From the NCBI GenBank assembly GCA_028287465.1, contig JAQBPO010000043.1, positions 1 through 64,000 on the forward strand: a stretch of 64,000 nucleotides of DNA, written 5' to 3'. Source of the stretch: Fibrobacterota bacterium. Its GTDB lineage: Bacteria > Fibrobacterota > Fibrobacteria > UBA11236. Shown in pieces: positions 34,448 through 39,415 of the stretch (within the stretch, counting starts at the first letter, position 1; every line of letters begins with the position of its first letter). The notes under the pieces were generated by a model that was not told the DNA's origin, did no database searches, and worked only from the letters and a program-made list of their open reading frames with translations. Both the position numbers and the translations under genes were made by a program.

Positions 34448-34705
34448 ATGGTGGATCAGGAATTATTGGACATGTTGTGCTGCCCGGAGACCAAGGAAGA
34501 CGTTTCCCTGGCCGATGCGGGATTGATCGAGACCTTGAACCGCAAGGTCGAGGCCGGCCAGCTCAAGAACCGGGGCGGCGAAATCGTGAAGGAAAAGATG
34601 GATTCCGGCCTGATCCGGGCCGATAAGAAGGTTCTCTATCCCATCCGGGAAGACATCCCCATTATGCTGATTGATGAGGCAATTTCCCTGGAAGGTTTGA
34701 TATAA
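34448..34705 (+). CDS. Trm112-like small protein
   Basis: An 85-residue protein resembling the Trm112/YcaR (UPF0434) family: ELLDMLCCPETKE at the start and the closing YPIREDIPIMLIDEA. Members with four cysteines bind zinc and stabilise methyltransferases; this one has only the first Cys pair, so zinc binding is unlikely. The middle (about residues 20-50) is a charged helical insertion. The gene sits between accA and the large TPR protein. Confidence 0.75.
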   Translation: MVDQELLDMLCCPETKEDVSLADAGLIETLNRKVEAGQLKNRGGEIVKEKMDSGLIRADKKVLYPIREDIPIMLIDEAISLEGLI

Positions 34706-34706: not shown

Positions 34707-34799
34707 AAGGACTTGCAGGAACCCGGCTCCCGGGTTCCGGAAATCCGGTATGTCCGGATTTCCGCGTCCGAATTTGAAATCCGTTTCGACGGGGGATAC

Positions 34800-37682
34800 A
34801 TGAGCATCCAGTACACAGCCGAACAACTGAAGCGGAAATTCAACGGGCCTCCCGGCACGCCCGGTTTCCCCCGTTTGGCCGAAGTCCTCCGCAAGGATGG
34901 CCGCCTCGAAGAATGCATCCAGCTTTGCCAGGAAGGCCTGCGCGCCCGCCCTTACACCCTTTCCGGCTACGTGGTCCTTGGCAAGGCCCTGATGGATTCC
35001 GACCGGATGGAGGACGCCCGGGAACAATTCGAGGCCGCCCTGCGCCTCGATCCCCGCTGCCTCTCCGCCATGGATTTCCTGGCCCGGATCATGATGCGCC
35101 TGCAATGGTCCGAAGCCGCCGCCGGCTACTATCGCTCCATCCTGGAAGTCGAACCCTGGGACTCCGAAGTCCGCGCCCTCTTGAGCGGCATCTCGCCGCA
35201 GTCCCCCCTGGTCCCTGGGCAATCCGGGCTCGACCCGGCTTCCCGGTCCGAGTCCCCCTACGAATCGGCGGCCCCGGCCTATCCTTCCCGGCCCGCGGAA
35301 TCGGATACCTTCGACAAGCCCGACGGCTTCGCCGGCGACGTTCTCGAAGTCAACCTCAACGACGTGGCCGCGGATTTCCTGCCCAGCCATGACGATGCCT
35401 CCATGGGCCTGGCGGACGAATCCCTGGAAGACGCCTTGGCCGCCTCCCAGGAGGCCACCAGCGAACAACCGAGATTCCAGTCCCCGGTCCAGGCTCCCGA
35501 ACGGATCGTGGAGCCCCAGCCGCAGGACATGTTCAAGGAGGAACCGACGGGGTCGATGGCCGACGTTGAAGGCGATGCCCCGCCCATCTCAGGGCAGGAT
35601 GTGGAAGATCGGTTGGACTCCCTGTTCGGCGTGGAGGACTCCCCGGTGGCCGCCTTGCGCGCTCAGACCGAGACCTGGACCCCGGCCCCGCCGGAACCCC
35701 CAGGCCCCGAAATCCCGCCCGCGAACGAGTATTCCACGGGTGATACGGAAGCCGCCGCGATCGTCCAGGCCGTTCCGTCCGATGAGCCCGCTCCCATCGA
35801 CCCGGTTTCCATTGCCGATTCGACCAGGCCCTACGAACCCACCGAGATTCCCGGAGTGCAGGATTTCAGCGCCGTGGATTTCGAGACGCCCCTGGAGCAG
35901 CGCACCCCGGCCGCCAACAATGCCTTCGCTGCGGATGCCGCATCCGTGGACGCCGAAGATCGCGTCCAGGGCGAGGATATCGAAGACCGGCTGGATCAGT
36001 TGTTCAACCTGACCGAAGAGGACAATCGTCCCCCGACCGAGACCTCGACCTTTCCGGTGGCCCCCGGGCCAAAGGTCGGCGAAGCCGTGGACATGGGCGA
36101 AGTCGTTCCGTTCGGGGGCGAGGTCGCTTTCCAGGAATCCTCCCCGGCGCCGGAGTCCTCCGCCCCTGCGGCTTCCTCCGCCCCTGCGGCCGGGACCCAG
36201 GCCGAGGAAGCCTTGGTGACGGGCCAGGACGTGGCCGACAAGATGGACAACCTGTTCGGTACCCAACCGGAAGCCAAGACCGCCGATTGGGATACGGCCC
36301 CGGAACCCGAGGCGAAGCCCCCCGCATGGGAAACCGCCCGTCCGCCCGAATCCGGGTACGAAACCGTCACCTCCCCTGAGCCCAAGCCCTGGACCGTGGA
36401 TAAGGACGAATTGGCGGCCCATCAGCCCCCGACGGGCGACGTGATGTCCACGGAGTCCATGCTTCCCCCCGGTTGGTTCGGGGACGCGAGCGACGGACCC
36501 CGCATAACCGGAGCGGACGTCGAGGCCCAACTCGACAAGCTTTTCCATATCGAAGAAGAGGGCGAGACCTTCAAGGCCCCGGAACCGGCTTCCGCGGGGA
36601 CCCAGGGTAACCTCGAGAATACCGTTACCTACATGGACGACGATGAGCGGGCCGCTGCGGATTCCGCCGCCGAGCAGGCCGCGAGGCCCATGCCCGGGGA
36701 CGAGGCCGATCTCACCGTGATGATGCCGGCCATGGTCGATAGCAACGCCCCCAAGGATACCTCCCGGATCAAGGAAAGCGTGGCCGATTGGCTGGCGCGC
36801 CAGAACGACGAAGCGGAAGCCAAGGCCGGTCCGGCCTCCAATCCCCCTTCCGGCGGAGACACCCTCATCCTGCCCATGGAGGAAGCCGGGTACGCCAAGG
36901 ACTACGACGCCTCCATGGAGCCGCCTCCATCCGCCCGCGAGACTTCCCTGGGGATGTTCGGGGATGACCTTGAGACCTTCGGCACCTTGGCCCCGGAAGA
37001 CTCAGCGTCCCTTTCCGACACCACCTCCATCGAAATGGTGGACGGCGATGACGTCGCGGAGCGCCTGGATCAATTGTTCGCCGAAGAGGATGCGGCGGGC
37101 GCCGACAAGGCCGGCTCCGGTTCCAACGGGGAAATGTCCCTCTTCATCCAGGAAAACGGGGAAGCCCTGGACCTTCCCACTACTGAATCCGCCCTCGGTT
37201 CGGGAATGGTATCCGGAGAGGATGTATCCTCCCGCCTGGACGAACTTTTCGAGGAATCCGGATCTTCGGTAACCGCCAGCCCCTCCCAGCCCGAAACGGG
37301 TGTTCCCACCGGTTTGGAAACCGACGAAGAACTGCTCCCAGCGCCGACCTTGGCCAAAGCGGGCGACCAGCCCCGCCCCGAACTGGCCCCGATGACCGAT
37401 GAGGAGGAGGGTTTCCCCGAAGAAGAGGAGATGCCGTCCGAATCCGGAGCGGGAGCCAATGTTGCCACGGTAACCCTAGCGGAAATATATTTCCAGCAAG
37501 GTTTGAGGGAGCAGGCGCTTCAGATTTACCGCCAGCTCCTGGAACGGGAACCCGAGAACGAATCGGTCCGTAAACGGATCGATGAAATCGAAGCGACCAA
37601 GCCCGATGGCGGGGATCGCGGACCCGGTTCGGACCCACGCAGGCCCAGGCCGGGGCTGAAGGTTCCCAAGCGTAAGAAGTAA
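34800..37682 (+). CDS. Large acidic TPR protein with six copies of a GxDVxxRLDxLF motif
   Basis: 960 residues, no signal peptide or membrane segment. Residues ~20-125 form TPRs, the middle ~750 are disordered and rich in Pro, Ala, Glu, Asp and Thr, and a further TPR pair begins near 890 before a basic tail. Within the disordered part a 13-residue motif, consensus [ST]G-x-D-V-x-x-[RK]-L-D-x-L-F, occurs at residues 264, 390, 474, 570, 748 and 805, each followed by acidic residues. The layout recalls FimV-type scaffolds (acidic linker, C-terminal TPR), and pilT is nearby, but homology is not claimed. GGGGGA precedes the ATG. The frame is real: codon use is uniform and the motifs are conserved only in this frame. 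Confidence 0.8.
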   Translation: MSIQYTAEQLKRKFNGPPGTPGFPRLAEVLRKDGRLEECIQLCQEGLRARPYTLSGYVVLGKALMDSDRMEDAREQFEAALRLDPRCLSAMDFLARIMMRLQWSEAAAGYYRSILEVEPWDSEVRALLSGISPQSPLVPGQSGLDPASRSESPYESAAPAYPSRPAESDTFDKPDGFAGDVLEVNLNDVAADFLPSHDDASMGLADESLEDALAASQEATSEQPRFQSPVQAPERIVEPQPQDMFKEEPTGSMADVEGDAPPISGQDVEDRLDSLFGVEDSPVAALRAQTETWTPAPPEPPGPEIPPANEYSTGDTEAAAIVQAVPSDEPAPIDPVSIADSTRPYEPTEIPGVQDFSAVDFETPLEQRTPAANNAFAADAASVDAEDRVQGEDIEDRLDQLFNLTEEDNRPPTETSTFPVAPGPKVGEAVDMGEVVPFGGEVAFQESSPAPESSAPAASSAPAAGTQAEEALVTGQDVADKMDNLFGTQPEAKTADWDTAPEPEAKPPAWETARPPESGYETVTSPEPKPWTVDKDELAAHQPPTGDVMSTESMLPPGWFGDASDGPRITGADVEAQLDKLFHIEEEGETFKAPEPASAGTQGNLENTVTYMDDDERAAADSAAEQAARPMPGDEADLTVMMPAMVDSNAPKDTSRIKESVADWLARQNDEAEAKAGPASNPPSGGDTLILPMEEAGYAKDYDASMEPPPSARETSLGMFGDDLETFGTLAPEDSASLSDTTSIEMVDGDDVAERLDQLFAEEDAAGADKAGSGSNGEMSLFIQENGEALDLPTTESALGSGMVSGEDVSSRLDELFEESGSSVTASPSQPETGVPTGLETDEELLPAPTLAKAGDQPRPELAPMTDEEEGFPEEEEMPSESGAGANVATVTLAEIYFQQGLREQALQIYRQLLEREPENESVRKRIDEIEATKPDGGDRGPGSDPRRPRPGLKVPKRKK

Positions 37683-37786: not shown

Positions 37787-38272
37787 ATGCAATTGAACGA
37801 CGTGGCTTCCCTGGTCAAGCTGCTGGATAAGAGCAGCCTCACCGAGATAAGCTTCAGCGACGAAACCTCCAAGGTGGTGCTGAAGAAGGAAGTCTACCGG
37901 GCGGCCCCGGTCCAGACCGCCATGATGGCCATGCCGATGGCCGCGCCCGCGCCCGCCCCGCTCCTTTCCGCACCCGCCCCGCAAACGGCCGGCGGAACCC
38001 CCGGCGCCGGACCAGAAAAAGCATCGTCCAAGTTCAAGGAAGTCACTTCGCCCATGGTGGGAACCTATTATGCGAGCTCCTCGCCCGGCGCCGCCGCCCT
38101 GACCCAGGTTGGGACGACCGTCAAGGCAGGACAGGTCCTCTGCATCATCGAAGCCATGAAAATCATGAACGAGATCGAGTCCGACGTGTCCGGCGTGGTC
38201 GAAGAAGTCTGCGTATCCAACGAGACGCCGGTGGAATACGGTACCGTGCTGTTCCGTATCAGGCCCGGTTGA
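37787..38272 (+). CDS. accB: Acetyl-CoA carboxylase biotin carboxyl carrier protein
   Basis: 161 residues with an N-terminal helix region, an Ala/Pro-rich linker (about 45-80) and a biotinyl domain with EAMKIMNEIE, whose Lys is biotinylated by BirA. SPMVGTYYASSSPG starts the domain. The carrier moves carboxybiotin between AccC and AccA/AccD. pilT intervenes before accC. Confidence 0.95.
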   Translation: MQLNDVASLVKLLDKSSLTEISFSDETSKVVLKKEVYRAAPVQTAMMAMPMAAPAPAPLLSAPAPQTAGGTPGAGPEKASSKFKEVTSPMVGTYYASSSPGAAALTQVGTTVKAGQVLCIIEAMKIMNEIESDVSGVVEEVCVSNETPVEYGTVLFRIRPG

Positions 38273-38314: not shown

Positions 38315-39415
38315 ATGAACGTTGAGTCCCTCCTCAAAGAGATGGTGCTCCGCAACGCGTCGGATCTGCATCTGCGCGTGGGCGGCCAGCCGGCTTTCCG
38401 CATCAACGGCGAGCTGTACCGACTCCAGGATCAGAGGATCACTCCGGAGCAGATGGAACAGTTCATCCTGGACTTGATGGACCGCAACCAGAAGACGAAT
38501 TTCGACGAGAAGAGCGAGCTCGACTTCGCCATCGGCATCCGCAATATCGGCCGTTTCCGCGTCAACGCCTTCAAGCAGCGCGGGACCCCGGCCCTGGCCA
38601 TCCGCGCCATCGTCGGCATCGTGCCCGCCTTCGAGCAGCTCGGCCTGCCCGAGGTCATCCGCGACCTGTCCCTGCGCAAGCGCGGATTGATCCTGGTGAC
38701 CGGCACCACCGGGTCCGGCAAATCGACCACCCTGGCCTCGATGATCGACCACATAAACGAGCATACGTCTTCGAACATCGTCACCATCGAGGATCCGATC
38801 GAGTTCCTGTACAAGGACAAGAAGAGCATCATCTCCCAGCGCGAGGTGAATTCGGACACCACCGGGTTCACCACCGCCCTGCGGTCGGCCTTCCGGCAGG
38901 ATCCGGACGTCATCCTCGTCGGGGAAATCCGCGATCAGGAGACCATGTCCATCGCACTCACCGCCGCGGACACGGGGCATCTGGTCCTTTCCACCCTGCA
39001 TACCATGAACGCCATCGAGACGGTCAACCGCATCGTTTCCTTTTTCCCGCCGCACCAGCACCAGCAGGTCCGCCTGATGCTCTCCAGCACCCTGGTTGCC
39101 ATCATCACCTTGCGCCTCCTGGCGCGCAAGGACGGCCGTGGCCGGGTGCCCGCCTGTGAAATCCTGGTCAACAACGCCACCATCAGGGAACTCCTGACCC
39201 AACCCGAGAATACACACATGATAGACGCCAGCATCCGCGAGGGGTATACCCAATACGGATCGCAATCCTTCGACCAATCCATCCTCCGCCTGTACCAGGA
39301 CGACCTGATCAGCTACGAGACGGCCCTCCGCGCGGCCAGCAACCCGGACGACTTCGAGTTGAAGGTTCGCGGGGTTGAAGGGACCTCCGACCGGAGCTGG
39401 ATGCAGGGTGTTTAA
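38315..39415 (+). CDS. pilT: Type IV pilus retraction ATPase PilT
   Basis: A 366-residue hexameric ATPase that drives pilus retraction. Walker A is GTTGSGKST (about residue 130), followed by the Asp box [14 protein letters not shown], Walker [13 protein letters not shown] and the His box [16 protein letters not shown]. The N-terminal PAS-like part begins [13 protein letters not shown]. The C-terminus lacks an obvious AIRNLIRE-type motif found in many PilT proteins but has [10 protein letters not shown] in its place. It overlaps accC by 8 bases, so it is translated within the acc unit. No other pilus genes are present in this window. Confidence 0.93.

Follow-up and report, generated by a model that had tools for sequence, protein, structure and literature searches.

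TPR proteins linked to type IV pili have been described in other bacteria. Myxococcus xanthus SgmX and Bdellovibrio Bd2492 are TPR effectors of MglA that act on type IV pili. Excerpts of the published accounts report that SgmX brings about the polar localization of the pilus ATPase PilB in Myxococcus (PMC7519303), that its 14 TPRs fall into three functional regions (PMC11580455), and that group 1 MglA members occur in Fibrobacteres (PMC4316618). FimV/HubP proteins, as described in an excerpt of PMC12918733, have an acid-rich cytoplasmic region, a C-terminal TPR and a link to pili and twitching; the acidic repeats of HubP are imperfect and vary between related species, and Pseudomonas FimV has a second cytoplasmic TPR. 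Among eukaryotic adaptors, paxillin carries several copies of a leucine-aspartate motif (LD motif, LDXLLXXL) that are bound by folded domains (excerpts of PMC2572193 and PMC7703752). In the group considered here, all Fibrobacteres genomes in PMC4704652 are stated to have type IV pilus genes, and pili reportedly aid the attachment of Fibrobacter to cellulose (same paper, in excerpt).

Here, we describe a locus of a Fibrobacterota bacterium that can be compared with each of these systems. The window, by which we mean the whole stretch of 64,000 nucleotides that was analysed, encodes a TPR protein, likened by its description to SgmX and Bd2492, which we refer to as the hub. Genomes, loci, families and genera of our sample are labelled G, L, f and g, and the window's genome is G000. 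The features are as follows.

34448..34705, + strand: Trm112-like small protein, upstream of the hub gene (Trm112 match in 46 of 60 class loci)
34797..37682, + strand: TPR hub protein, 961 aa from an ATG start, with N-terminal TPRs, an acidic disordered middle and a C-terminal TPR
34872..35195, + strand: N-terminal TPR region of the hub, about residues 26-133 (Pfam TPR_2, TPR_12, TPR_16, TPR_19)
35589..35627, + strand: motif copy 1, SGQDVEDRLDSLF
35967..36005, + strand: motif copy 2, QGEDIEDRLDQLF
36219..36257, + strand: motif copy 3, TGQDVADKMDNLF
36507..36545, + strand: motif copy 4, TGADVEAQLDKLF
37041..37079, + strand: motif copy 5, DGDDVAERLDQLF
37212..37250, + strand: motif copy 6, SGEDVSSRLDELF, conserved weakly within the genus
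37449..37607, + strand: C-terminal TPR of the hub, about residues 885-937 (genus pairwise identity 0.90)
37787..38272, + strand: accB (BCCP), between the hub gene and pilT
38315..39415, + strand: pilT, TPR-linked group by tree (TIGR01420, 461.1 bits)

A preliminary description of this DNA had placed TPRs at both ends of the hub, and Pfam bears this out, with TPR matches only near residues 26-133 and 885-937. Like SgmX, the hub has TPRs in its N- and C-terminal parts and neither a signal peptide nor a membrane domain (PMC7519303, in excerpt). No membrane helix is indicated by hydropathy, the highest 19-residue Kyte-Doolittle mean being 0.78. Unlike SgmX, whose 14 TPRs include the middle of the protein, the hub has a disordered middle with a repeated motif, and its gene lies near pilT. 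The hub resembles FimV/HubP in having a C-terminal TPR and an acid-rich region that is predicted to be disordered (low pLDDT; residues 141-871 contain 22% Asp/Glu and 5% Lys/Arg), and differs from them in lacking LysM, a membrane helix and a FimV family match. No LysM match was found in Pfam at E ≤ 0.01 or in NCBIfam at E ≤ 0.1. NCBIfam includes FimV models, and at E ≤ 0.1 it gave no FimV-named family for the hub, the TPR families found being generic only. In contrast to the HubP repeats, the hub repeat is one defined short motif that recurs across families. Because defining features of both SgmX and FimV/HubP are lacking in the hub, we compare it with them and assign it to neither. The likeness to the paxillin LD motif is also limited: the hub copies have the form [RKQ]-[LM]-D-x-L-F, with no L-L-x-x-L continuation in any of them, paxillin is eukaryotic, and we claim no sequence relation.

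The six copies share the consensus [STDQ]-G-x-D-[VI]-x-x-[RKQ]-[LM]-D-x-L-F, with the motif glycine at residues 266, 392, 476, 572, 750 and 807 (numbering from the ATG). Their positions agree throughout with those first reported, at 35589, 35967, 36219, 36507, 37041 and 37212, and the strict pattern G.D[VI]..[RKQ][LM]D.LF has exactly six matches in the hub, all of them these copies. When residues 141-880 were shuffled 20,000 times, no shuffle contained a strict match. The earlier observation that acids follow each copy does not extend to copy 3, after which comes GTQPEAK and not an acid run. In an alignment of the window's hub with five same-genus orthologues, the motif columns are kept (mean pairwise identity 0.83, 7% gaps) and the linker drifts (0.44, 21% gaps), so the motif passed a comparison that could have gone against it; the N-terminal TPR stands at 0.73 and the C-terminal TPR at 0.90 in the same six genomes. 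Conservation in the genus is strong for copies 1 to 5 (0.94, 0.88, 0.81, 0.83 and 0.80), on which lie the top five conserved windows of the disordered region (0.83-0.97), and poor for copy 6 (0.65, 42% gaps), which is missing in G003 and broken in G004. Three motif-free stretches, at residues 180, 550 and 869, come close behind copies 1 to 5 (0.81-0.82 in the same genomes). Two of these are 35334-35369, GDVLEVNLNDVA, and 36444-36479, MSTESMLPPGWF.

The proposal that the motif forms an amphipathic helix is supported in part. The hydrophobic moments of cores 1 to 6 rank 53, 2, 27, 46, 6 and 15 among 740 windows. A single-sequence AlphaFold model of the whole hub, of low confidence (mean pLDDT 40.6), places five helices within residues 134-884, four of them on copies 1, 2, 4 and 5; a further short predicted helix, at residues 663-666 (36783-36794), lies outside the copies. 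In a fragment model of residues 740-961, helices at 750-767 and 807-820 coincide with copies 5 and 6 (block pLDDT 56-79) and the C-terminal TPR is confident. PDB fold matches of this fragment, none of which reaches E ≤ 0.001, consist mainly of generic TPRs and include FimV TPR3 (4mbq) as a weak, generic match at rank 33 (E 0.57). The motif profile found no PDB match at E ≤ 10. Based on these predictions, the motif would most likely turn into an amphipathic helix once bound. An alternative interpretation is that the motif is a self-association helix, acting as a condensate sticker or pairing as a short coiled coil, in which case no folded reader would be involved. The region is multivalent, acidic and disordered, and its hydrophobic positions are spaced, as might be expected of such a helix. 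Among 26 aligned copies, which were chosen by hand, one aspartate is invariant and the glycine nearly so. Such fixed polar positions fit recognition better, as does a copy at the tail of a membrane protein described below, and we consider self-association improbable.

The motif recurs over the phylum. We built a 25-position profile around the motif (A1) and a profile of the hub C-terminal TPR (A2), and searched a phylum sample of 167 genomes, 126 from the window's class and 41 from elsewhere. In the window's genome, A1 finds the six copies at E values from 7e-10 to 2e-8, the next matches being at 3.4 and 4.1. The motif scan that the preliminary description had called for gave A1 matches at E ≤ 0.001 in 10 of 16 genomes, solely inside the hub protein (next match E 0.23), and at the same threshold A1 matches at least 63 of the 167 phylum genomes. 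From among the A1 matches listed, 31 loci were chosen by hand and fetched; 23 are the TPR protein and 8 are the membrane protein. None of the 29 outgroup genomes searched, out of 30 reached through AccC loci, matched at E ≤ 0.01; the outgroup comprises genomes of other groups, three of the 29 titled only "bacterium", and the A1 matches in the 16-genome and phylum searches serve as the positive control for this empty result. A2 matches 122 of the 126 class genomes and 40 of the 41 others, at least one of these matches, that in G160, probably being another TPR protein.

A profile rebuilt on its own matches, whose weak copies therefore lean towards the model, finds 313 copies in 73 of 101 TPR frames, with 0 to 15 copies per orthologue, and none in 505 shuffled sequences. 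The 101 frames include two from G133 (L230, L231) and L290 (G160, weak A2 match), which is elsewhere set aside as probably another TPR protein; L213, a second copy of G033, was excluded. Many frames are cut at contig ends, and some of the 28 without a copy are cut or short. Taken broadly, the docking peptide is roughly [ST]-G-x-D-[VI]-x-x-[RKQA]-[LIMF]-[DNES]-x-[LIMF]-F. The Fibrobacter-like G022 belongs to family f3, where copy 1 resembles ISGSDVSSALSDMFG and the copies after it have diverged to sequences like VDNAFDSIFGEDELPE. Matches to Fib_succ_major number 114 in G022, and there are none in G000. One explanation that dispenses with function is chance or neutral internal duplication, which could draw on recent tandem expansion in L183, L125 and L234. 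It is very improbable, since copies 1 to 5 are conserved across the genus while linkers drift, the motif recurs phylum-wide and in a second protein, and the shuffled sequences lack the copies found in the real frames. Conservation, distribution and copy counts together bear out a short linear motif that is under selection, multivalent and set in disordered sequence.

The middle of the protein varies in other ways among orthologues. Long repeat units are tandemly expanded at L183:1-1782, L125:6091-8766 and L130:8407-10830, with other or drifted core motifs, and other repeats were seen in two g11 frames read individually, L128 and L183. In the G139 orthologue (L275:6083-9577) no motif was found, the locus is without pilT, and the middle consists of repeats like IVETESFVESVIEPEAV. 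Frames of genus g11 (L128, L185-L190, L199) have no copy by the rebuilt profile, though pilT adjoins.

The link between the hub gene and pilT, proposed from the window alone, extends across the phylum. In the window, pilT lies at 38315-39415 as first noted, with accB (37787-38272) in between, and its product scores above the TIGR01420 cut-off (461.1 against 319.1 bits). Among 60 class loci (59 fetched and the window), picked by hand as were all loci for the neighbourhood comparison, a same-strand pilT follows the TPR gene in 55, 1 to 632 nt apart, the exceptions being the four g2 genomes and G068. Outside the class, pilT follows in 30 of 35 assessable loci and not in G127, G139, G159, G165 and G166; L230, L238, L246, L250 and L286, where contigs end, were left out of this count. 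Between the two genes there is nothing large in f3 and f5, accB in the window's genus, f2 and f4, and, outside the class (L223-L247), an M24-peptidase-like gene named by eye from translations. The TPR-pilT pair thus survives replacement of the intervening gene. In a tree of 87 PilT-family pieces, printed without support values, the 48 TPR-linked pieces form one group and the 39 others, among them all over-cut-off PilT-family matches of G127, G139, G159, G160 and G165, lie outside it.

Loss of PilT provides further evidence. In g2, none of four genomes has a PilT/GspE-family match at E ≤ 1e-20, and the TPR frames (L116-L119) are short (247-307 residues), with no long middle and no motif. This co-loss of motif and PilT represents one lineage with small genomes, and g2, having no such PilT/GspE match, does not fit the statement, in the excerpt of PMC4704652, that all Fibrobacteres genomes there have type IV pilus genes. 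G166 has no PilT above the family cut-off and no motif. Although g2, a small-genome sister genus, has no PilT/GspE matches, its hub locus still encodes a short TPR protein with both TPR ends, so the TPRs probably have a function beyond pili. Three observations connect the hub with the pilus system, namely its gene order, the PilT group that stands apart and the g2 loss.

One possible reader of the motif is therefore PilT, with each copy docking on a TPR-linked PilT subunit and the string gathering or restraining retraction motors. The TPR-pilT gene pair with its separate PilT group is consistent with this, as is the absence of both PilT and the motif array from g2 and of both PilT and the motif from G166. 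Several genomes do not fit. The motif occurs without a TPR-linked PilT in G165 (five copies), G159 (four weak copies) and G127 (one copy), and G151, G153, G154 and G155 have a TPR-linked PilT and TPR proteins in which the motif was not found. In G068 (77% complete), where PilT-family matches are absent, the TPR protein carries a repeat array of another kind. Among non-class genomes, the adjacent PilT type is not associated with the motif (19 of 22 with the motif, 4 of 6 without; p 0.29). Other PilT paralogues could still serve in the genomes without the linked type, and the mismatches set PilT back as the sole explanation. Sequence comparison thus gives the PilT reader partial support, because motif presence tracks the second protein, described next, better than the adjacent PilT, and we regard this reading as possible though doubtful.

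Outside the window's class, the motif has a second bearer, a membrane protein in which it forms the last residues, for example ITGDDVADKIDSFFG. In this tail protein (L291-L318; G126-G165), an N-terminal membrane helix (19-residue hydropathy of 2.3 and 3.0 in two members) is followed by a conserved stretch of about 100 residues, then by an acidic linker and finally by the motif. All 24 readable tails end in the motif, the other 5 of 29 being cut, masked or broken, and some tail proteins have a second, degenerate copy further up. Several fully read members share a linker segment like FSMETIMDLDI. A profile of the N-terminal part (A3) finds the tail protein in 29 of the 167 genomes, all among the 41 non-class genomes, and in none of the 126 class genomes. 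Four members gave no family above threshold in Pfam or NCBIfam, and at six loci inspected by eye no pilus gene was recognized beside the tail-protein gene. Thirty non-class genomes have a closed TPR frame; of these, 22 of the 24 with the hub motif encode the tail protein, as do 2 of the 6 without (Fisher p 0.007, kinship ignored). The association tables were compiled by hand; G151, judged from a possibly broken frame of 218 aa, was scored as motif-free, and its tail protein (L239), missed by A3, as present.

TPR domains elsewhere read C-terminal peptides, and another candidate reader is a TPR groove within the hub. Hubs would then interlink motif to TPR, and the membrane protein would recruit the hub through its C-terminal motif. 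The position of the tail copies at the extreme C-terminus agrees with this, as do the co-occurrence of the tail protein with the hub motif and the A2 TPR match at E ≤ 1e-4 in all 29 tail-protein genomes (weak in G160 and G163). Against it, both TPR ends persist in the motif-free g2 and G166, so the TPRs have another client, and searches of the window's class genomes found no tail protein. We consider this reader unlikely, somewhat more so than PilT. Because the motif tracks the tail protein better than the TPR-linked PilT, we tentatively place first a third protein that is neither a PilT-family ATPase nor the hub TPR groove, followed by PilT and then by the hub's own TPRs. The PilT and TPR readings specify the reader and are compatible with the more general statement that the repeat is a docking peptide.

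On balance, we think it probable that the repeat is a docking peptide with a putative shared reader, and that the hub is a soluble, cytoplasmic TPR hub of the type IV pilus system. Weighing against this reading are the g11 frames that lack the motif beside pilT, the other array of G068, the frames without a copy, the missing association with the adjacent PilT type outside the class, the absence of the tail protein from the class genomes searched and of a recognized pilus gene beside its gene, and the restriction of the g2 co-loss to one lineage. The folded ends of the hub would hold partners and its disordered middle would offer several copies of the peptide, such that several molecules of one reader may be gathered along one hub chain. 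Given that the hub is made beside a dedicated PilT-family ATPase, it would probably serve to collect retraction motors, to position them or to hold them back. A membrane-anchored tail, in other classes, would offer this reader a docking site at the inner membrane, where the tail protein would compete with the hub or join it. We speculate further, with some reserve, that the motif is a peptide code in which one reader common to the cytoplasm (hub) and the membrane (tail) sets where, or how many, pilus motors work; such a code may date back to the ancestor of the phylum, in which case the window's class either lost the tail protein or never acquired it.

Eukaryotic scaffolds routinely use short linear motifs in multivalent form, and to our knowledge few such motifs are known in bacteria. 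Linear-motif hubs as such are already known; a bacterial motif with two kinds of bearer was not found in our literature search, and in the titles and beginnings of abstracts it returned, neither this motif nor the TPR-PilT pair was described for Fibrobacterota. Proteome papers on F. succinogenes name several TPR proteins in the portions available, none of which was matched to the hub. The motif described here recurs over many families of the phylum, next to the gene of a pilus motor, and a second protein bears it at its tail. A peptide of 13-25 residues is a ready bait, and the identity of its reader could show how these bacteria control their pili.
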